Below are positions 1,999 through 9,408 of a DNA stretch of 11,513 nt, piece by piece. The DNA comes from Bryobacterales bacterium (GTDB lineage Bacteria; Acidobacteriota; Terriglobia; Bryobacterales; Bryobacteraceae). Position 1 is the stretch's first letter, and the number at the start of each line of letters is the position of its first letter. The DNA lies in assembly GCA_003132905.1 (NCBI GenBank), contig PKZC01000130.1, positions 58,630 through 70,142 on the forward strand, given 5' to 3'. The position numbers and the translations under genes were made by a program. Below the pieces are notes generated by a model that worked only from the letters and a program-made list of their open reading frames with translations, ran no database searches and was not told the origin of the DNA.

Positions 1999-2282
1999 GC
2001 GATCCGATCGAAGAAGCGTCTAAGTCGCTGGCCGTGTGGCGTGGTGACCACTACGAACCAAATATCGAGATTGACGAATTAGCCCGACTCAAACAAAGCC
2101 ACGGCGAACTACTCGCAGCGCTGAAGGTATTCATGGAAATGCTAACAGACGGACGGCTGGTCCGTGACATAACGCGCGATGGAGAATCCAGCTTCAGCTT
2201 GCGAATGGTCGACTTTGTTCGTGAGTTGAACAAGGCGCAGCAAGCTATTCGGAACGGGGAGGCCATATGTCCACCGAAATGA
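1995..2282 (+). CDS. hypothetical small acidic protein
   Basis: Encodes 95 residues. The frame is open upstream, but the ATG at 1995 has GGAGGG (1985-1990) before it and a four-base overlap with the preceding stop, so it is the start used. Residues 26-52 form a helix (EIDELARLKQSHGELLAALK, continuing to MEMLT) and residues 75-90 another (DFVRELNKAQQAIRNGEA), a helical-hairpin or coiled-coil outline. No catalytic motif or Cys cluster. It overlaps the next gene by 16 bases. Confidence 0.6.
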   Translation: MSDPIEEASKSLAVWRGDHYEPNIEIDELARLKQSHGELLAALKVFMEMLTDGRLVRDITRDGESSFSLRMVDFVRELNKAQQAIRNGEAICPPK

Positions 2283-2512
2283 AGCTCACGCCGGTCGAGG
2301 CCGAGGCGACAACCGAGGAATGGTACGAGGTGCAATATTCGTATGGTGGTGTACACTGGGTCGCCTCGATGGGTAAATACGCGATAGAATCAGCGAAGCG
2401 TGAAATGGCTACCTGTATCCAGAGGGCAAAGGGGCCTAGCGAACTGCGTCCCGCGTATCGCATTGTCCACAAGCGCCTCACCACCACGCCGATGAGGGAG
2501 GCCACCGAATGA
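2267..2512 (+). CDS. hypothetical small protein
   Basis: Encodes 81 residues, with a strong GGGGAGG just before the ATG. Residues 17-45 have the look of a beta hairpin followed by a helix (EEWYEVQYSYGGVHWVASMG, then KYAIESAKREMATCIQ), ending in a strand (AYRIVHKRL). This strand-strand-helix-strand order is seen in small phage proteins of unknown role; I cannot assign a family. The stop overlaps the next start by four bases. Confidence 0.6.
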   Translation: MSTEMKLTPVEAEATTEEWYEVQYSYGGVHWVASMGKYAIESAKREMATCIQRAKGPSELRPAYRIVHKRLTTTPMREATE

Positions 2513-2700
2513 TTCGACGTACCTGTACGGAATGCCATCAGTCAAAGCCAATCCATTGCACTGAGCAACAGTTGGCTGCATATGAAGCTGGAGAACTAAT
2601 TCAGAGAGCGATGCCCGACGTCTCCGAGGATGAGCGTGAATTACTGATCTCTGGGGTTTGTGGCCAGTGCTTTGACGAACTCTTCAAGGAGGCCGAATGA
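2509..2700 (+). CDS. zinc-ribbon miniprotein
   Basis: Encodes 63 residues and carries C6-x-x-C9 near the start and C51-x-x-C54 near the end, with C17 between, the layout of a treble-clef or zinc-ribbon fold. The C-terminal ISGVCGQCFDELF resembles a pattern I associate with small zinc-binding phage proteins. Between the Cys pairs is an acidic helix (residues 19-47). Function unknown; protein- or nucleic-acid-binding is likely. Coupled by four-base overlaps on both sides, with GGGAGG before its ATG. Confidence 0.65.
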   Translation: MIRRTCTECHQSKPIHCTEQQLAAYEAGELIQRAMPDVSEDERELLISGVCGQCFDELFKEAE

Positions 2701-2861
2701 CCCCAGAACTTGTTCCCGTAGCTGGAATCGCCGCAGTTTGGCTAATTCTCTCTATCGGTCACCTCCGACAGCGCGCCAAGGCCCACCGGAAAGCGGTAGC
2801 CGAGCGCGACAAGCTGCCCTTGATACGGCAGCGCGTCAGATTACCAGAGAGGCCGTTGTGA
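2697..2861 (+). CDS. single-pass membrane miniprotein
   Basis: Encodes 54 residues from an ATG at 2697 preceded by AAGGAGG (2686-2692). Residues 5-21 are a hydrophobic segment (LVPVAGIAAVWLILSIG), followed by a strongly basic tail (HLRQRAKAHRKAVAERD), which predicts one membrane helix with the C-terminus in the cytoplasm. The size and outline resemble small inner-membrane or spanin/holin-accessory proteins, but nothing specific supports lysis, and it lies among early-type genes. The overlaps at both ends (ATGA, GTGA) support it. Confidence 0.6.
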   Translation: MTPELVPVAGIAAVWLILSIGHLRQRAKAHRKAVAERDKLPLIRQRVRLPERPL

Positions 2862-3082
2862 ATCGCAACATCCCGCCAGATCGCCGCGAGTTGGAGCGCC
2901 GGCTAAGCGAGCATATCGCCGCGGGCACGTGGACCTATTATGGCGCTCACTATTATGGCGCTCACCGCTCCTGTGCCGCATGCGTGGAGTTGCGCCGCAA
3001 ACTGGCGGAAGCCATCGAGCGCGAGGCCCCGCAAGACGACGAAATGGAGCGCTCCCGCTTCGAAAGAAAGGGCGGCGCATGA
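2858..3082 (+). CDS. hypothetical protein with in-frame 5-residue tandem duplication
   Basis: Encodes 74 residues from a GTG at 2858 that overlaps the preceding TGA; GAGAGG at 2847-2852 fits as its ribosome binding site. The frame is open upstream but inside the membrane-protein gene. The N-terminal half is a charged helix (DRRELERRLSEHIAAG). Then comes YYGAH repeated twice in tandem, C-x-x-C in SCAACVEL, and a second charged helix rich in Glu and Arg. The repeat is exact at DNA level (15 bp twice). No family recognised; His and Cys residues around positions 28-41 could bind metal. Confidence 0.6.
   Translation: MNRNIPPDRRELERRLSEHIAAGTWTYYGAHYYGAHRSCAACVELRRKLAEAIEREAPQDDEMERSRFERKGGA
2936..2965 (+). 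repeat. perfect 15-bp tandem duplication
   Basis: TATTATGGCGCTCAC occurs twice head to tail at 2936-2950 and 2951-2965, in frame, adding YYGAH to the coded protein. Exact identity of the two copies points to a recent slippage event or to variation between strains. Confidence 0.9.
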
Positions 3083-3120
3083 CTGCCCTCCTGCTTGGCC
3101 ACGGACACACTACCGCTTGA
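3079..3120 (+). CDS. possible 13-residue leader peptide or gene remnant
   Basis: An ATG overlapping the preceding stop (ATGA at 3079-3082) opens a frame of 13 codons (MTALLLGHGHTTA). It continues the chain of coupled genes but is cut short by a TGA that lies within the -35 of the next promoter. It may be the stump of a truncated gene, a by-product of coupling, or a leader peptide; there is no way to tell from sequence alone. Confidence 0.3.
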   Translation: MTALLLGHGHTTA

Positions 3121-3145
3121 CAAATTCATGCTTCGGTATTAATAT
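3117..3145 (+). promoter_or_regulatory. strong sigma70-like promoter
   Basis: A perfect TTGACA (3117-3122) and a near-perfect TAATAT (3140-3145) are separated by exactly 17 bases. Transcription would start near 3152. No gene with a ribosome binding site begins within the next 280 bases, so the first product is likely an RNA or a long leader. Confidence 0.7.
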
Positions 3146-3438
3146 GTAGGTGGAATCTGAACGTTGGCACCGTCTGACTAGTAGGATCCCACCGGGGGGC
3201 AGAAATGCTCCCTTCTTCCTCGTGATGCGGCATCGCAAGCCGCCGCACTGTGTTGCAGCAATGTTGTCCACCACGAACCTAGCCGGTTGCTCCAATCAAG
3301 CAATTACTTACCGGCTGGGTTCTTCCGGTTTTAACCCCCACCGTCGGCTAACTGGGCAGCAAAGGCTACGTTCCTCGAGCCGACGCCTGGTTATGGAAGG
3401 GGCTTACTCGCGCCCTGGAGCGACAGCGCGGAAAAGAA
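3146..3438 (+). ncRNA. candidate structured leader or small RNA downstream of strong promoter
   Basis: This 293-base stretch has no convincing gene. Frames crossing it are rich in Arg, Ser and Pro and lack ribosome binding sites. Transcription from the promoter at 3117-3145 would enter it. Visible folds are a 7-bp hairpin closed by a GAAA tetraloop (3195-3212) followed by a pyrimidine-rich tract, a TGCGGC/GCCGCA hairpin (3227-3247), and a long-range GTCGGCT/AGCCGAC pairing (3343-3349 with 3378-3384). A short RNA of roughly 65-70 bases ending after the first hairpin, or an attenuated leader for the 3439 gene, are the two readings. From 3352 on, the frame of the 3439 gene is open and looks protein-like, so the last 87 bases may be coding. 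Confidence 0.4.
3195..3220 (+). terminator. terminator-like hairpin with GAAA tetraloop
   Basis: GGGGGCA (3195-3201) pairs with TGCTCCC (3206-3212) around a GAAA loop: seven pairs including one G-U. It is followed by TTCTTCCT (3213-3220). The stem is strong; the tract is mixed pyrimidine rather than pure T, so intrinsic termination would be partial. Confidence 0.4.
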
Positions 3439-3780
3439 ATGTATGCCTCCACCTACAAATCTATATACGGGCCGCATAACAATCGCGGGCACGAGTTTAA
3501 CTCCGTTTCCGGAATTAAGGCGAAGACGCCGGCAGCTATTAGCTTTGTGGTTGAACCGCTTCACGGAACAATCGTGAATGTTCTCAAGGCTGGTGGCTTT
3601 CTGTCAACGCGCCAGGAACACCGCAGACCTGGCGCAATGATAAATTGCTTTATGTTCTACCTCGTTAATTCAAGAGGATTTACCGTTGGCCAATTTTACC
3701 GACAAACCGTCGAGAAATGGGCTCGGCGCGGGCTGCTGGTGCGCCAAGGCGACCGCTACGTATTGCCGCCTCACGACTAG
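3439..3780 (+). CDS. unrecognised protein with possible C-terminal winged helix
   Basis: Encodes 113 residues from the first ATG; upstream GGAAAAG is only a weak ribosome binding site. The same frame is open back to 3352, and those 29 codons look protein-like (GYVPRADAWLWKGLTRALER), so the true start may be non-standard, or the 5' part may have been lost to a frameshift or stop at 3349-3351. The C-terminal half has Arg-rich and aromatic stretches ending in TVEKWARRGLLVRQGDRYVL, which resembles the recognition helix and wing of a winged-helix domain. This suggests DNA binding, on weak grounds. It lies just before the promoter of the replication genes, where a regulator would fit. Confidence 0.5.
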   Translation: MYASTYKSIYGPHNNRGHEFNSVSGIKAKTPAAISFVVEPLHGTIVNVLKAGGFLSTRQEHRRPGAMINCFMFYLVNSRGFTVGQFYRQTVEKWARRGLLVRQGDRYVLPPHD

Positions 3781-3817
3781 CCGCATTTTCCACTTGCTCC
3801 GCGCCGCGAGAAATCTG

Positions 3818-3846
3818 TTGCAAACGTCGCGCAGCTCGTGCATAAT
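3818..3846 (+). promoter_or_regulatory. sigma70-like promoter of the DCL-primase operon
   Basis: TTGCAA (3818-3823) and CATAAT (3841-3846) are separated by 17 bases. Transcription would start near 3853, giving a leader of about 90 bases to the start at 3944. It lies between the 3439-3780 gene and the replication genes. Confidence 0.55.
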
Positions 3847-3875
3847 AGTTCGGTCAACGCTGAAAAGTAAAGACC

Positions 3876-3915
3876 GGATCGGCTGATCCACGGCGGGGTG
3901 CTTGCCCATCCCGCC
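3876..3915 (+). promoter_or_regulatory. two hairpins in the leader of the DCL-primase operon
   Basis: The first hairpin is GGATC-ggct-GATCC (3876-3889). The second is stronger: bases 3892-3900 pair with 3907-3915, GGCGGGGTG against CATCCCGCC, nine pairs with one G-U and a 6-base loop. There is no T tract, so a simple terminator is unlikely; an attenuator, RNA stabiliser or protein site is possible. The TTG at 3902, the furthest upstream start for the DCL gene, sits in its loop. Confidence 0.5.
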
Positions 3916-3943
3916 TCAGCCTTACCTCGGCAAGGAGGAGTTT

Positions 3944-4639
3944 TTGGAAATCCAACTCGGTTCGCTTGTTTTTATCAACAAGACCAAGGCCGAAGAATAT
4001 ATCCGCAACATCCTATCCCGCTACAACTCGATGCGGCCACTCCAAGGCCGTGACCGCGAGATTATCGATTCGGTTCTGGACCTGCACCCCAACAAACACG
4101 TAATCGTTGATTGCGGTATAAAAGACATTCTGGTTCAGTGGCTCGACGACCGCGGCGAGAAAAGGCGATTCATCGCCAAGCGCGTCGATTCCTCGATCCG
4201 CGACTTCACCTGGCGCCACGCACTTTATCCGCGTTCGGAAATCCAGAGTCTGAGGCGAACCTGCCGCACTCTCGTTCAAGATCAGATCGCATACTTCCGA
4301 CGGCAGGCCTTTGGCCGCGATCTTGCGCTAGAGTGCCTGATCACTGGCGATCGCATCACTGAACAAACCTGCGATGTGGACCACGCCGCGCCGGACACGT
4401 TCAATGCGCTGGTTGATCGCTGGCTTAGCAGTTGCGGAATCAATGCGGAGGATATCGAGATAGTGCCTTCGCGCCATTACCAATTCCCGGATGCGTTTCA
4501 AGATGAAGTACTGGCGCAAGCGTGGCGCGAATTTCACAAGATCAACGCACGCCTGAGGGTCGTTTCCATCACCGCCAATCGATCCATACTCAGGAAGACG
4601 AAGGAACGATGGGCAACGCCATTCTTGACGCAGCTCTGA
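3944..4639 (+). CDS. DUF3223/DCL-domain protein fused to HNH-like domain
   Basis: Encodes 231 residues from a TTG at 3944, chosen because AAGGAGG (3932-3938) lies five bases before it and the domain begins right there; a TTG at 3902 would add 14 residues but sits in a hairpin loop. Residues 3-97 match the DUF3223 (DCL) pattern: strand plus FxxKxxAE at 10-17, helix, RYxxxxxLxGRD (26-37), LLxxHP-like (44-49), G58 IxDIxV, then FxxxRxDxSxxDFTW (76-90). DUF3223 is known from the plant plastid rRNA-maturation protein DCL and from bacterial and phage proteins; its biochemical role is unsettled. Residues 108-165 resemble an HNH-type core: CLITGD (131-136) and DVDH (144-147), followed by FNALVDRWL. 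A second metal-binding His or Asn is not obvious. It overlaps the primase start by 31 bases, implying a role in replication or nucleic-acid processing. Confidence 0.75.
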   Translation: MEIQLGSLVFINKTKAEEYIRNILSRYNSMRPLQGRDREIIDSVLDLHPNKHVIVDCGIKDILVQWLDDRGEKRRFIAKRVDSSIRDFTWRHALYPRSEIQSLRRTCRTLVQDQIAYFRRQAFGRDLALECLITGDRITEQTCDVDHAAPDTFNALVDRWLSSCGINAEDIEIVPSRHYQFPDAFQDEVLAQAWREFHKINARLRVVSITANRSILRKTKERWATPFLTQL

Positions 4640-6405
4640 GGTATGCTGCTATGGGCTTAGCTGTGATTCCAGTTGAACCGGAAACCAAGGCACCTTACTT
4701 CAAGGCGTGGACGGAAGTGGCCACTACCGACCAATCGCTAATCCAGAAATGGTGGACCCAGGACGCGCGCGCCAATGTCGGGATCGTGACGGGGAAGCGC
4801 TCGCAGGCCTTCGTGGTTGACGTGGACCCGCGAAACGGAGGGGAAGAGTCCATTGATACCCTGTTCTCAAAGAACGGTCGGTTCCCAGACACTTGGCAGG
4901 ATATAACGGGCTCTGGCGGCCGGCACTACTGGTTCCGGTATCCGGCCTTCCCTGTCGGGAACAAAGCCGGCATCCTCCCTGGCATTGACATCCGCGGCGA
5001 TGGCGGCCAGGTAGTTGCGCCGCCGAGCCTGAACCCTACAACCGGAAGGCGCTACATTTGGGATGGCTTAAAAGAGCCGTGGGACGATCAACAAGGACTT
5101 GCCGAGGCGCCGGCTTGGCTGCTTGACCTTCTCCACCCCCACGAACGCACCAATACGTTTGTCGAAATCGCAACCCGGATTCCGCACGGCGTCCAACACC
5201 AAACCCTTGTTTCCTTGGCTGGCGCGATGCGCCGAATGGGGTTATCGCCAGGAGAGATATTCCCCACCCTTCAGCACGTCAACTTGAATCGCTGCGAACA
5301 GCCTGGCCCGGAAGTCAACATACGAAAGATTGCCGAATCAATGGCTCGGTATCAACCAAGCGACCGCAGTTTGTATCAAGAAGCCAGCAAACTATGGCGC
5401 CTTACCAGATTTGCTGAGGAGCGCACCAAAGAAGCCGACACTGCCGACAAAGGGCGCCGCCGCCCAATCGACGCCTATTCTCTCCTGACAAACGAAATGG
5501 AAGGCGTTAAGGCCATGATCGAGGGCGTCCTTCACAACGGCGTCACGCTGTTGGCTGGCCCTCCTAAATCGGGTAAGTCATGGGTTACTTTAGGCATGGC
5601 AATTGCCGTAGCCACTGGCGGTAAGTTTCTGAGTAAGTTGGGCATAAAAAGGCCAGGTCGCGTCGCTTATTTCGCTCTCGAAGAATCCGAAAACAGAACG
5701 CACAACCGCTTAAAGATGCTTGTTGAAGGTCGCCCTATAGCTTTGCAGAATATAGAGTTTTCATACGGCATTAGTTCGATGGACAACGGCGGCATGAAAG
5801 AGTTAGATACTTACCTCTCACTTACTCTTCCGAACTTAGTCATAATCGATACCTTGATGGCATTTGTTACTGGGAATAAGTCATCCCGGAACGATGTGTT
5901 CAGACAAGATTACCGTGAAATAAAAGCGCTCCAGGAACTAGCCGTTAAGCACGATACCTGCATACTAGTGGTTCACCATACAAATAAGGTGGGGGGAACC
6001 GGCGTTACGGCCGTAGCTGGCACTCACGGCGTAACCGCGGCGGCTGATGCTGTATGGACTATGAAGCGCCAGGCCGATCGGCGGGCCATCCTGGACATGA
6101 CTGGTCGAGAGATCGAGGATCAGACCCTTTTGATCGAACTGGAACTTAGGCAGCCCATAGGATGGTTCATTGTTGAAGCAGGCAGCGGCGCCAAGACGTC
6201 GGAAGAACGCCAAGAGATACTTGAGTTGCTGACCGACGAGGGCGCTTTGGAGCCATCCCGGATCGCAACGCTACTTCGGAGAAACGCGGTAACAGTTCGG
6301 CGCCTTCTCATGAAGCTTACGGCCGCTAATTTGGTTGTAAAAGATGGCAAACGTTACAGGATAGTGAATGTGGAGTCAATCTCCCGTGGGTACCGTGATG
6401 ATTAA
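4609..6405 (+). CDS. bifunctional primase-polymerase / RecA-like helicase replication protein
   Basis: Encodes 598 residues from an ATG at 4609 with AAGGA at 4601-4605; the frame is open 29 codons further, but these lie inside the DCL gene. Residues 1-200 are a prim-pol domain (Prim-Pol family): catalytic D71-x-D73 in VVDVDPRNGG, SGGRHYW with H106, and GIDIRGDGGQVVAPPS with D127 and D131. Residues 184-248 match a primase C-terminal (PriCT-like) helical module (IPHGVQHQTLVSLAGAMRR). Residues 288-520 are a RepA/AAA_25-type RecA-fold ATPase: Walker A GPPKSGKS (317-324, K323), Walker B LVIIDT (D414), and the VVHHTNK motif (H456, H457). Residues 531-590 form a winged helix ending in NLVVKDGKRYRIV. 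Such proteins prime and unwind DNA for phage, plasmid and integrative-element replication. It borders the iteron origin directly downstream. Confidence 0.93.
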   Translation: MGNAILDAALRYAAMGLAVIPVEPETKAPYFKAWTEVATTDQSLIQKWWTQDARANVGIVTGKRSQAFVVDVDPRNGGEESIDTLFSKNGRFPDTWQDITGSGGRHYWFRYPAFPVGNKAGILPGIDIRGDGGQVVAPPSLNPTTGRRYIWDGLKEPWDDQQGLAEAPAWLLDLLHPHERTNTFVEIATRIPHGVQHQTLVSLAGAMRRMGLSPGEIFPTLQHVNLNRCEQPGPEVNIRKIAESMARYQPSDRSLYQEASKLWRLTRFAEERTKEADTADKGRRRPIDAYSLLTNEMEGVKAMIEGVLHNGVTLLAGPPKSGKSWVTLGMAIAVATGGKFLSKLGIKRPGRVAYFALEESENRTHNRLKMLVEGRPIALQNIEFSYGISSMDNGGMKELDTYLSLTLPNLVIIDTLMAFVTGNKSSRNDVFRQDYREIKALQELAVKHDTCILVVHHTNKVGGTGVTAVAGTHGVTAAADAVWTMKRQADRRAILDMTGREIEDQTLLIELELRQPIGWFIVEAGSGAKTSEERQEILELLTDEGALEPSRIATLLRRNAVTVRRLLMKLTAANLVVKDGKRYRIVNVESISRGYRDD

Positions 6406-6440
6406 CTTATGGTTATTATTTTAAACAACTTACGGACAAT

Positions 6441-6477
6441 CGTTCACGCTGTTCACGGTCGTTCTCTAGCGTTCACA
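6441..6477. repeat. iteron cluster I (three GTTCACG/A units)
   Basis: GTTCACG occurs at 6442-6448 and 6451-6457, nine bases apart, and GTTCACA at 6471-6477. Between them a degenerate GTTCTCT stands at 6461-6467, so the spacing is nearly regular at 9-10 bases. The 19-bp block 6441-6459 recurs exactly in cluster II. The sequence CGGACAATCGTTCACG leading into this cluster (6433-6448) recurs, minus one A, at 6518-6532. Confidence 0.85.
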
Positions 6478-6525
6478 GGGGGATTGATTAAGTTTGGCTT
6501 TTGTTTTCAACATCTTGCGGACATC

Positions 6526-6573
6526 GTTCACGGTATCGTGAACGGAGCCGTTCACGCGTTCACGCTGTTCACG
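6526..6573. repeat. iteron cluster II (four direct and one inverted GTTCACG)
   Basis: GTTCACG occurs at 6526-6532, 6550-6556, 6558-6564 and 6567-6573, and in inverted form (CGTGAAC) at 6537-6543. The direct and inverted units at 6526-6543 form an imperfect palindrome with a 4-base centre. The last three units are spaced 8 and 9 bases. Bases 6557-6575 repeat bases 6441-6459 exactly. Confidence 0.85.
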
Positions 6574-6638
6574 GTTGGGCAACTGGCCGGCGCTTACCCA
6601 AGGGCATGTCTTCGGTATCTGTTGACGCGCGCAAGCCG

Positions 6639-6709
6639 TACGGTACGGGACGCTAAGGCGTTGCCGTTACGGGCAGATACGGGGCGTATGGCGGTAGATC
6701 ATACGTGGG
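6639..6709. repeat. second short-repeat array (TACGGG and variants)
   Basis: TACGG(G) occurs at 6639, 6644, 6668 and 6678, with variants TATGG at 6687 and TACGTGGG at 6702. Spacing is irregular (5-24 bases). It is weaker than the GTTCACG array and could be a second protein site within the origin or compositional chance. Confidence 0.45.
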
Positions 6710-6737
6710 CCTGATCCGCAGGCGTTAAGTCCGGGGA

Positions 6738-6800
6738 GGTCCCGCGGAGGACCGGATCGGATCGGCGGATCGAATCGGGCGAGTATCCCCCTTAGGGGGA
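6738..6800 (+). promoter_or_regulatory. GGATC repeats and two hairpins before the 6821 operon
   Basis: A GGTCC-cgcgga-GGACC hairpin (6738-6753) runs directly into GGATC units at 6754, 6759 and 6767 and a GAATC variant at 6772. A second hairpin pairs TCCCCC (6786-6791) with GGGGGA (6795-6800) around TTA. It stands just before the ribosome binding site of the 6821 gene, so it may shape translation or RNA stability. No T tract follows, so it is not a standard terminator. I found no convincing -35/-10 pair for this operon. Confidence 0.45.
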
Positions 6801-6820
6801 AGTGTATACAAAGGAGGAAC

Positions 6821-7057
6821 ATGAAAGCACTTCGTAAGATTGACCGAGCCGATATTGAAGCGGTGTTTCGTCGCGCCGGATTGCGTCTGGCAGACCTGGA
6901 CCCAAACGCTGTCGGCGTGCCGATGAAGGATTGGATACTCGAGGACCAACGCCGGCAGTGCGATGCGTGGCTGGAGACGCAGGACAATACCGCGGCGCCG
7001 CTGAGCAGCCAGCGGATAGCCGGAAGTAGGGACAATTACGGATGGAAAAGCGCATGA
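6821..7057 (+). CDS. hypothetical small protein, first gene after the origin
   Basis: Encodes 78 residues from an ATG with a full AAGGAGG just before it (6811-6817), one of the best ribosome binding sites in the window. Residues 5-25 are a helix (RKIDRADIEAVFRRAGLRLA) followed by an acidic turn and a second helix (MKDWILEDQRRQCDAWLE); the tail is polar and probably disordered. No family recognised. It leads a row of coupled small genes running to about 8909. Confidence 0.6.
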   Translation: MKALRKIDRADIEAVFRRAGLRLADLDPNAVGVPMKDWILEDQRRQCDAWLETQDNTAAPLSSQRIAGSRDNYGWKSA

Positions 7058-7284
7058 CAAGCCACGCGACGAACGAACCGCCACATACAGAACCGCAAAC
7101 GGAATACGAGCGGATGCTCGACAGGCTGGAACTAGATTGTAGCCAGTATCAGTGTTGGAACCCGATCGCGGTTTTTGTTCTCGTTGAGCATGGCCACGGG
7201 TGTGGGCGCGGTGCGGATAACGAGAAAGGCGTCTGCGCCGAGCATGTCAGCGGGAGAACGGTAAGCAGATGGTTGGAAACATGA
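7054..7284 (+). CDS. hypothetical small protein with Cys-rich C-terminal half
   Basis: Encodes 76 residues from the ATG at 7054, preferred because it overlaps the preceding stop (ATGA) and follows GGAAAAG; an in-frame ATG at 7042 would add four residues. The first 20 residues are polar and likely disordered. Then come four Cys (in DCSQYQCWN, HGCGRG and GVCAEH), which could bind metal or act in redox, and a short helix at the end. Family unknown. Confidence 0.55.
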   Translation: MTSHATNEPPHTEPQTEYERMLDRLELDCSQYQCWNPIAVFVLVEHGHGCGRGADNEKGVCAEHVSGRTVSRWLET

Positions 7285-7490
7285 CTAGGCCAATTTGGGA
7301 ACTTGTGATTAAAGACATGACGGCTAGGAACCGGCTAGGACTAAAACGCTATGGAGAGCGATTGCGCGCTGGCAACGGAGGGGACGCACTCCAGAATGCT
7401 TACGAGGAATCGCTTGATCTATGCGTTTACCTTCGGCAAGCCATCGAGGAAAGACGCATTACCGAGCGCGGGGCGAAGGGGGCGAGATGA
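7281..7490 (+). CDS. small helical protein resembling MazG-like/dNTP pyrophosphohydrolase fragments
   Basis: Encodes 69 residues; the ATG at 7281 (ATGA overlap, GGAAAC before it) is favoured over one four codons upstream. The sequence WELVIKDMTARNRLGLKRYG, then NGGDAL and AYEESLDLCVYLRQAIEE, follows a pattern I associate with phage proteins tentatively linked to all-alpha NTP pyrophosphohydrolases. The EExxDL part recalls half of their metal site. The full ExxE...ExxD set is not present, so enzymatic activity is uncertain; a structural or regulatory helix bundle is the alternative. Confidence 0.6.
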   Translation: MTRPIWELVIKDMTARNRLGLKRYGERLRAGNGGDALQNAYEESLDLCVYLRQAIEERRITERGAKGAR

Positions 7491-7705
7491 GAAAAGCGGA
7501 AGAATTGAGCAACCCGAATAGCTGCATCAATCGCGCGAAGTTGACGGAGATGACGTTCGTCCTCCTAGCACGAGATATCACGGCTCCTGCGACTATTCGT
7601 GAATGGTGCCGACTCCGCTGTTTGTACGGCAAGAACACTGCCAAAGATGAGCAGATCCAGGAGGCTCTTGCTTGTGCTGACGCTATGGAAAAGGAGAGAG
7701 CGTAA
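7487..7705 (+). CDS. hypothetical small protein
   Basis: Encodes 72 residues from the ATG at 7487, which overlaps the previous stop by four bases and follows a purine-rich GAAGGGGG; the frame is open upstream only inside the previous gene. Four Cys residues are spread along it without a clear metal motif. A helix near the middle (TIREWCRLRCLYG) and an acidic C-terminal helix (DEQIQEALACADAMEKER) are visible. No family recognised. Confidence 0.55.
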   Translation: MRKAEELSNPNSCINRAKLTEMTFVLLARDITAPATIREWCRLRCLYGKNTAKDEQIQEALACADAMEKERA

Positions 7706-7908
7706 TGTGGCTACGATTAACTCAGGCCAATGAATCTGGAGAAGAGGTCGGCCCGATGAGCGTGAACAGCGACAACATCGCGGCCATTATTCCGCTTGAA
7801 CGGAGCGGCATTGCCTTCTCCGTTTTACGGACAACGGATTGCAGAGTGCTCTGGACGATGGAAACGCTGGAGCAAATCGAGGCGAAGATGAAGCAGGCGC
7901 GAACATGA
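7705..7908 (+). CDS. hypothetical small protein
   Basis: Encodes 67 residues. The start shares one base with the previous stop (TAATG), and AAGGAG at 7691-7696 lies eight bases before it. The body reads as a beta-rich mini-domain (MWLRLTQAN, NIAAIIPLERSGIAFSVLRT, RVLWTM) with a C-terminal helix (TLEQIEAKMKQA). This resembles small beta-barrel proteins common in phages (residues that bind a metal or ligand are absent), but there is no firm family. Coupled to the HAD gene by a four-base overlap. Confidence 0.6.
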   Translation: MWLRLTQANESGEEVGPMSVNSDNIAAIIPLERSGIAFSVLRTTDCRVLWTMETLEQIEAKMKQART

Positions 7909-8312
7909 ACGGATGGATAGGAGTAGACCTTGACGGCACGCTTGCCGAATATAACGGCTGGGTGAGCGAGGAGCATATTGGCGCCCCGATAGGCCCGATG
8001 TTAACGCGCGTGCGCCAGTGGATCGCGGAAGGCAAAGACGTGAGAATCTTCACTGCTAGGGTGGATGGCGGGGAAGTCGCCATCGCTATGGGTAATCAAG
8101 CCGGAGAGCGGTATAGAGACGTCCAGCGTATTCGCGGTTTTATTGAGAACTGGTGCATTGCTCACGTTGGGTGTGTGCTGCCTATCACCAACAAAAAAGA
8201 TTACGGGATGATCGAATTATGGGACGACAGGTGCGTTCAGGTTGTCCCAAATACCGGCCTTACTTTGATGGAGGCGCTAGTCAAGCAGGCGCGAGAGGCG
8301 GGAACGCCGTGA
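7905..8312 (+). CDS. HAD-superfamily phosphatase
   Basis: Encodes 135 residues from the ATG at 7905 (ATGA overlap; the upstream open frame lies inside the previous gene). The four HAD motifs are visible: motif I DLDGTL with D8 (nucleophile) and D10 (acid/base), motif II T50 in FTARVDG, motif III Lys at K97/K98, and motif IV D107/D108 in LWDDRCV. No large cap domain is present; the short insert between residues 20 and 45 is only a minimal cap. Small cap-less HAD phosphatases of this kind are frequent in phages and are thought to act on nucleotides or nucleic-acid ends, but the substrate cannot be read from the sequence. The start lacks a strong ribosome binding site, so coupling to the gene before it probably matters. 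Confidence 0.85.
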   Translation: MNGWIGVDLDGTLAEYNGWVSEEHIGAPIGPMLTRVRQWIAEGKDVRIFTARVDGGEVAIAMGNQAGERYRDVQRIRGFIENWCIAHVGCVLPITNKKDYGMIELWDDRCVQVVPNTGLTLMEALVKQAREAGTP

Positions 8313-8482
8313 GTAAATCATTCAAGATTGCGGGGGTTTTCGGATGGCTGGCGGTGGGTTTAATGGTGACAGCGGCGGGGATGGAACCTAACTCAGTCCG
8401 GAGAGCAACAGAATGGACTGAGGCCGGTCTTTACGTGGTGGCCCTTGGAGCATTTATCTACAGCCAGCGAGGAAAATCGTGA
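8309..8482 (+). CDS. two-helix membrane miniprotein
   Basis: Encodes 57 residues from a GTG at 8309 that overlaps the preceding stop. Two hydrophobic segments, residues 6-24 (KIAGVFGWLAVGLMVTAAG) and 38-51 (AGLYVVALGAFIYS), are joined by a short polar loop and followed by a basic tail, which predicts a hairpin in the inner membrane. Small two-helix proteins can be holin-like, but the place among accessory genes gives no support for lysis. Function unknown. The start lies inside the first of two near-identical 17-bp junction repeats. Confidence 0.6.
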   Translation: MSKSFKIAGVFGWLAVGLMVTAAGMEPNSVRRATEWTEAGLYVVALGAFIYSQRGKS

Positions 8483-8649
8483 CCTACGAAGTGCGGGCGA
8501 CATTCACACTGGACGCCGACAGCAAGCAAGAGGCTTTGCAAATGGTCTCGGCTTGTATCGAATGCTGGGACGAACAAAGCGGCATCGCCAATCTGCAAGG
8601 CGTTGGCGGCGCGCAGGGTTATGTCACGATCAAGGCGGAAACGCCGTGA
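8479..8649 (+). CDS. hypothetical small protein
   Basis: Encodes 56 residues from a GTG at 8479, with GAGGAAAA before it and a GTGA overlap to the membrane protein. It has a strand-helix-strand layout: MTYEVRATFTLDADSKQEAL, a helix with Cys and Trp, then GYVTIKAE. This resembles a small ferredoxin-like or dodecin-like fold, but length and motifs allow no family call. It is short enough to be missed by a length-filtered gene search; the overlaps on both sides are the main support. Confidence 0.55.
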   Translation: MTYEVRATFTLDADSKQEALQMVSACIECWDEQSGIANLQGVGGAQGYVTIKAETP

Positions 8650-8909
8650 GCACTCAACCAAAGCCCGAATATAGTTTCAAATTCGACAAGGCGAAAAACA
8701 CCTGGGTGTGCTGCGTCCATGGCGAGGTGGACTTCACTGGCTGGATTCCCTGCTGGGCTGGCTGTGATGGAGGCTTCTTCGATGATTACGAGGAAGATCC
8801 GCTTATGTATGATCCCGGAGACATGTCGCCATGCCGAGAGTGCCGCGGCAAAGGAGGCTGGAGAGTCTGCGGAGAATGCGTGGCTGACAATCCTGATGTC
8901 GAATGGTAG
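8646..8909 (+). CDS. zinc-finger protein with DnaJ-like CxxCxGxG motif
   Basis: Encodes 87 residues from a GTG at 8646 overlapping the previous stop. Residues 63-78 read CRECRGKGGWRVCGEC, i.e. CxxCxGxGG...CxxC, the pattern of the DnaJ central zinc domain and of many small phage proteins. C36 and C40 in CWAGCDGG and C22-C23 could add a second site. Between them is a strongly acidic linker (DDYEEDPLMYDPGD). Likely a zinc-stabilised adaptor that binds protein or nucleic acid; the precise role is unknown. Confidence 0.65.
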   Translation: MSTQPKPEYSFKFDKAKNTWVCCVHGEVDFTGWIPCWAGCDGGFFDDYEEDPLMYDPGDMSPCRECRGKGGWRVCGECVADNPDVEW

Positions 8910-9105
8910 CCACAACCGACCGGGTGACCCTCCCCGTGCAGATCCGTCACCATCCGCGACCGACCGGATCCTCCCGCTCAGCACGCGAGAGCGCCGCGAG
9001 ATGGCCCGCGCGATCGCGCTAGAGACGCTGATGCGCAGCATGGAACCGCGAGAGGCGCGTGTGGTTGGGAGACATCCCGATGTTCTAGACAGCGAGGAGG
9101 CGTGA
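8896..9105 (+). CDS. hypothetical small basic protein
   Basis: Encodes 69 residues from an ATG at 8896, overlapping the previous gene by 14 bases; no clear ribosome binding site is visible. A later in-frame ATG at 9001 would give only 34 residues. The first 30 residues are Pro/Ser-rich and probably disordered. Residues 35-55 are an Arg-rich helix (STRERREMARAIALETLMRS), and the end is acidic. No family recognised. The stop is followed at once by the ATG of the DUF4326 gene. Confidence 0.5.
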   Translation: MSNGSHNRPGDPPRADPSPSATDRILPLSTRERREMARAIALETLMRSMEPREARVVGRHPDVLDSEEA

Positions 9106-9408
9106 ATGCCAAAGAGAATACAACGCAAGCGAACGCGCGGCTACAAGCTACCCCCAAATACAGTCTGCGTGACCAGGCCGAGTAAGTGGGGTAATCCGTT
9201 CAGAGTCGGAGATACCTGCGGCGCCGTCGTAATAACGAATGCTCAGATGGCTGTGGATCTGCATCGCGACATGGTGCTCGATATTTTCTGCGCCTATGAT
9301 TTTCGCCTGCGGCTTCGCAAAGAACTGCGCGGTAAGAATTTGGCCTGCTGGTGTAAAGTCGGGACTCCCTGTCATGCAGATATCCTTCTCCGAATTGCAA
9401 ACTCGTGA
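9106..9408 (+). CDS. DUF4326 family protein
   Basis: Encodes 100 residues from an ATG directly after the previous stop, with GAGGAGG at 9094-9100. It matches the DUF4326 family across its length. The N-terminal RKRTRGYKLPPNTVCVTRPS is followed by KWGNPF (27-32). Residues 74-98 read LRGKNLACWCKVGTPCHAD and on to LLRIAN, with the conserved C81, C83, C89 and H90, which look like a metal or catalytic site. The family is common in phages and bacteria and has no firmly assigned function that I know of. The length is normal for the family, so this is an intact gene. Confidence 0.9.
   Translation: MPKRIQRKRTRGYKLPPNTVCVTRPSKWGNPFRVGDTCGAVVITNAQMAVDLHRDMVLDIFCAYDFRLRLRKELRGKNLACWCKVGTPCHADILLRIANS

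Follow-up and report, generated by a model that had tools for sequence, protein, structure and literature searches.

The window, a stretch of 11,513 nucleotides of the Bryobacterales contig PKZC01000130.1, carries on its forward strand a putative initiator gene (4609..6405) whose product consists of Prim-Pol (aa 9-170), PriCT-1 (192-250), a RecA-type, RepA/DnaB-like hexameric helicase ATPase, AAA_25 (293-462), and a C-terminal winged helix (about 531-585). Prim-Pol and AAA_25 were recognized by Pfam, and the complete domain set places the protein among the Prim-Pol/RepA-type helicase/winged-helix replication proteins. Its closest homologues by sequence among those listed (P0002-P0018) are 53-62% identical to it. 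The winged helix, encoded at 6172..6366 (+) and with a recognition helix of about RRNAVTVRRLLMKL, is the candidate iteron-binding domain. Its AF2 model has a pLDDT of 89.8 and its best fold matches in the PDB are winged helices of the MarR/IclR/Zalpha type; the origin-binding domain of P4 alpha is not among the listed fold matches, though the two may be kin. The start of the initiator gene is overlapped by 31 nt by the gene of a DUF3223 protein (phrog_28887, 3944-4639), and this overlap suggests that the two are co-expressed. A DUF4326 protein (phrog_464) is encoded at 9106-9408 and has short-stretch matches in two of the homologous loci described below (L008 and L245), while positions 7914-8312 show a weak match to the phage polynucleotide kinase and phosphoheptose isomerase families (phrog_415 and phrog_1238). 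No Rfam family or tRNA was found in the window.

Directly downstream of the initiator gene, beginning 36 nt past its stop, lies an array of eight GTTCACG copies that spans 6442-6573. Six copies are direct and exact (+ strand, starting at 6442, 6451, 6526, 6550, 6558 and 6567), one is the direct variant GTTCACA at 6471 (+) and one is exact and inverted (6537-6543, minus strand). The copy number, orientations and position next to the prim-pol/helicase gene given in the initial annotation (eight copies, seven of them direct counting the variant) were all recovered, as was its 19-bp block, CGTTCACGCTGTTCACGGT, a tandem iteron pair in 9-nt phase which is repeated exactly at 6441..6459 and 6557..6575 (both +). 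The copies form cluster 1 (6442..6477, +, with the iterons at 6442, 6451 and 6471) and cluster 2 (6526..6573, +, with those at 6526, 6537, 6550, 6558 and 6567). Start-to-start distances are 9, 20, 55, 11, 13, 8 and 9, so that a spacing described as mostly 8-10 bases holds within the tandem pairs and not elsewhere. Likewise, the two clusters are real, while the 48 bp between them (6478-6525), described as AT-rich, are only moderately so (about 58% AT versus 44% window-wide). The AT maximum of the whole 11.5 kb is situated before cluster 1: no other 40 nt are as AT-rich as 6401..6440 (77.5% AT), a candidate unwinding element.

Two further features had been missed by the initial reader. An AT-rich leader of 29 bp is present at 6410..6438 (+), where it ends with CGGACA, and again at 6495..6523 (+), with 23 of 29 positions identical, and none of 2000 shuffle pairs scored equally high. 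Iterons begin within a few bases after both leader copies, and the duplication of the leader indicates that clusters 1 and 2 go back to one leader-plus-iteron module that was duplicated and then diverged. The second feature is the inverted iteron pair CGTTCACG-GTAT-CGTGAACG at 6525..6544, a perfect inverted repeat with arms of 8 bp and a loop of 4 nt, which makes an 8-bp hairpin possible; the DNA fold of 6400-6620 has a z of -3.55. The array has seven exact copies within 132 nt. When the whole window was shuffled 200 times with its dinucleotides preserved, no 7-mer had more than four copies per 200 nt, and when 6406-6600 was shuffled 2000 times, none exceeded three. The density of repeats is beyond chance, as had been claimed. 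Since shuffles never reach the observed copy number, the explanation by chance is refuted for the window. That the repeats are a by-product of repetitive coding sequence has some basis in homologues whose clusters lie in the coding tail and spell VTPVTP or QQHQQH, but the window's array lies past the stop and such clusters are found at only 9 of 197 control ORF ends, which leaves chance and by-product together as a hardly credible explanation.

Homologous loci were found with alignment queries (A1 made of 33 and A2 of 12 of the 120 homologues listed); scanning viral contigs with a single sequence turned up no relative. We used the best 80 of 334 viral matches, the best 80 of at least 531 genome matches and the best 80 of 92 further viral matches, some contigs of the second viral scan being the same as in the first. 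As the best 80 loci per scan were taken, all locus counts describe the nearest relatives. In Acidobacteriota 13 of 396 genomes have a match at E <= 1e-40; among six of 18 Acidobacteriota loci inspected, one (L251) has a usable 3' end, and its cluster is not significant (14/100 shuffles).

Eleven homologous loci were inspected by eye. Arrays of TGAAC/GTTCA are situated at or just past the gene stop in two viral contigs (L003 and L005) and two Acidobacteria (L085 and L089), whose proteins are 37-45% identical in the matched segments. A different repeat word was read at or just past the gene stop of L082, L083 is truncated by the contig end, and no evident TGAAC array is present in L002, L004, L008, L092 and L094. 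L165 and L166 stand for the places already named L085 and L089. The tandem GTTCACGCTGTTC, the same word in 9-nt phase, is common to the window, L005, L165 and L166. In L002/L170 (46% identical) the gene is kept with no array 3' of it, one case of what the initial annotation had named as refuting its proposal; two TGAAC, 6 nt apart, are found within the coding end only, and in the 64-kb record the pair GTTCA-N2-10-GTTCA occurs just once, some 13 kb away from the gene. A separate word, GATTCTAAAGCAA, is exact at L003:7825 and L005:3276, 61 and 173 nt past the stops of two distant homologues, and is not present in the window. The sole exact match of the 19-mer in viral contigs, L001, lies within a reading frame, where it spells AFTLFTV, and was taken as chance; the surrounding frame is presumably that of a lysozyme-like protein. 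To look at the neighbourhood we tried 25 window ORFs, two of which were dropped because of stops, and of the remaining 23 proteins only the DUF4326 protein matched the fetched loci, in short stretches. The array thus stays with the initiator gene and not with a conserved neighbourhood.

The 3' ends of the genes were then compared family-wide. A 7-mer cluster of at least five copies is present in 51 of 91 non-redundant AAA_25-type loci (window excluded), and the strongest cluster of the locus falls within -300..+400 of the stop in 38 of these 51, versus 3.6 expected by length. For loci matching in other parts only the corresponding figures are 11 of 19 versus 1.4 expected; 8 of the 161 sequences in this survey lack a usable 3' end. 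A 6-mer cluster between -300 and +450 of the stop was called significant when no more than one of 100 shuffles reached it. By this measure the gene 3' end bears a significant cluster in 63 of 105 non-redundant homologous loci, the window among them, compared with the above 9 of 197 other ORF ends that these loci supplied as controls, and P4 alpha as positive control has nine copies (0/100 shuffles). The search for repeats beside homologous genes, proposed initially as a check, is therefore mainly positive, with 42 of the 105 loci lacking a significant cluster.

The repeat word varies from homologue to homologue, and in many of them the array extends into the coding tail of the gene. In L023, L039, L097, L100, L098, L051 and L080 the cluster is inside the last 20-310 nt, and such clusters sometimes spell protein repeats (VTPVTPVT in L023, QQHQQH); they give the impression of an origin placed within the gene. 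In L018/L020 and L026 strong clusters lie about 400-525 nt before the open frame of the gene (AAGAGTA nine times and GGGACCC seven times), a possible alternative position of the origin. About 5.1 kb past the gene of L108 there is a tandem 7-nt repeat, GTTTCAC, with 17 copies in about 119 nt.

Whether the repeat word follows the protein was examined in 50 loci, that is the 63 significant ones without the 13 that have no winged-helix HMM hit, and in a stricter set of 42, from which eight more loci were dropped whose array overlaps winged-helix codons; the alignment A3 comprises 35 of 75 winged-helix stretches. Among the 50 loci motif similarity correlates with winged-helix identity with r 0.360 and with helicase identity with 0.276. 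Given the helicase, the value for the winged helix is 0.248 (0/2000 permutations), and given the winged helix, that for the helicase is 0.067 (190/2000). The stricter set gives partial correlations of 0.274 (0/5000) and 0.036 (1256/5000), respectively, and here the recognition helix given the rest of the winged helix reaches 0.356 (0/5000), versus 0.082 (373/5000) for the rest given the recognition helix. The 16 loci with the cluster wholly past the stop show a weaker partial correlation (0.197, 200/5000). In pairs with less than 0.45 helicase identity the word can be predicted from the nearest neighbour by recognition helix (0/2000), but below 0.35 this neighbour does no better than chance (461/2000). 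L003 has the TGAAC word though its recognition helix is 20-33% identical to those of L005, L165 and L166. On these comparisons the repeat word tends to change together with the recognition helix, more than with the helicase domain.

We regard it as probable, at roughly 0.8, that the protein encoded just upstream recognises the array as its cognate site, and that the array serves the element as its origin or as an essential cis site close to the origin. Binding of the iterons by the initiator is supported by the covariation; that the site would be an origin, and not merely a binding array, we infer. The origin that the initial annotation had assigned to the adjacent replication protein is in this way supported, through the 3' arrays of the homologues and the covariation, as far as binding is concerned. 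The C-terminal winged helices of several protein copies would bind the GTTCACG iterons, and the array, judging by the fold, would nucleate a RepA/DnaB-like helicase ring. Strands would probably open in the adjacent AT-rich leader, the helicase would load, and the fused Prim-Pol, as expected from the identity of this domain, would make the primer. Ring assembly, melting and priming are modelled on the domains and on P4 (PMC4234260), SaPI and Cch2 (PMC7581432) and PICIs (PMC6092414), as far as these sources describe them. In the simplest reading the replicon would be of a one-polypeptide initiator type.

The main rival to the origin reading is a role like that of P4 crr, in which the same protein binds the array for copy control or another cis-required accessory function and synthesis starts elsewhere. 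P4 has type-1 repeats in crr, behind alpha, and again about 4.7 kb off in the annotated origin; with this second group so far from crr, cis site and start point need not coincide. The GC skew, proposed initially as a quick check, fails to mark the array and speaks for such a role, as its cumulative minimum over 2001-9000 is at 5493, within the gene, with no turn at 6500; moreover, the visible part of the element is 11.5 kb only. However, the AT-richest stretch of the window adjoins the array, and a PICI rep-ori of like layout is described as supporting plasmid replication (PMC6092414). We regard the accessory role as a possible but rather unlikely explanation of the array.

Much less probable still is that the repeats are operators or the partition site of another, separately encoded DNA-binding protein. 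Short repeat arrays also act as centromeres and operators, and AspA and a pNOB8 centromere-binding protein are among the fold matches of the winged helix. On the other hand, the word tracks the initiator's own recognition helix across the family, the array stays with the initiator gene while the other tested window proteins, bar the one with short matches, do not recur, and neither a sigma-70-like promoter nor an intrinsic terminator was found in 6200-7000.

Beyond this locus, we lean slightly towards a wider view of the origin reading, in which Prim-Pol/RepA-helicase/winged-helix proteins, of phages as well as other elements, would form a large class of one-protein replicons that has hardly been recognised. 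Each would carry an iteron origin of its own, either at the gene's 3' end or within it, and a readable code would link the recognition helix to the iteron word. Examples of such pairs would be [KR]N-x-x-T-[VI]-RRLL with TGAAC, RNN[VI]KQLLFKM with GATAACC and [VA]RQTCRRM with GTGACA. If the code is true, origins would be predictable from sequence, and specificity would have been re-tuned many times. Prim-Pol genes are common in mobile elements, yet in the sources consulted we found no origin described for the Prim-Pol/RepA-helicase type, which is why the question is important. The relevant parts of PMC4234260, PMC7581432, PMC7145576, PMC7157519, PMC5862659 and PMC6092414 describe none. No description of an iteron origin for this type was found in the open-licence literature, which does not prove its absence; the one paper found there for iterons together with PrimPol is on SCCmec.

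Classical iteron plasmids are of the Rep_3 type and DnaA-dependent, whereas the window protein has no Rep_3 domain in Pfam and 6400-6620 contains no DnaA-box-like site within one mismatch, which suggests that initiation is independent of host DnaA. In RSF1010, RepA, RepB' and RepC, which work with an iteron origin, are three separate polypeptides, compared with one in the window. A close likeness in layout is P4 alpha/crr, where GTTCAC iterons likewise follow directly on the initiator gene and belong to a duplicated module: crr begins 45 bp past the stop of alpha, against 36 nt for the array in the window, its core word is TGTTCAC, and its iterons are in two 120-bp direct repeats, comparable to the duplicated leader-plus-iteron module. 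Both have a 9-nt tandem with the core GTTCAC, TGTTCACACTGTTCACC in P4 and CGTTCACGCTGTTCACGG in the window. The helicase of P4 alpha belongs to SF3, and the window protein differs in having Prim-Pol and a RepA-like AAA_25 helicase instead of Toprim and SF3. P4 alpha is described as a multidomain primase-helicase with a winged helix and a Toprim primase (PMC4234260).

In SaPI Rep and Cch2 the C-terminal domain is reported to recognise repeats directly downstream of their gene (PMC7581432), and in the PICI pri-rep-ori the initiator gene is followed immediately by two iteron sets that flank an AT-rich region (PMC6092414), as clusters 1 and 2 flank the 48 bp between them 3' of the window's gene. 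These are other proteins, of small satellites and islands (PICI/SaPI, SCCmec Cch2), whereas proteins of the window's type are present on contigs of up to 71.8 kb; none of the PICI gene set (int, regulators) was recognised among the window proteins scanned, a part of the ORFs in 11.5 kb. pRN1 ORF904 also joins primase, helicase and C-terminal winged helix and has an essential region 3' of its gene, but with an SF3 helicase and a large stem-loop without iterons (PMC4234260), as opposed to AAA_25 and iterons. In the part of that paper concerned with them, the primase/SF3/winged-helix proteins of pRN1 and phage BIP-1 are argued to use a stem-loop behind the gene and not iterons, and this printed model for related proteins counts against the iteron-origin reading.

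By domains only, the window protein can be likened to the PrimPol-PV1 supergroup, with which it shares a RepA-type helicase and a winged helix that was suggested to take part in origin recognition (Kazlauskas 2018, PMC5862659). The word "iteron" is absent from the main text of that paper. The domain set and the suggested origin-finding winged helix are thus already in print there, and the layout is already known from P4 crr and, as far as described in PMC6092414, from PICI origins. That recognition helix and iteron word are paired across the family would be the part new to specialists, and the published prediction that such winged helices recognise origins gains support at the level of sequence.
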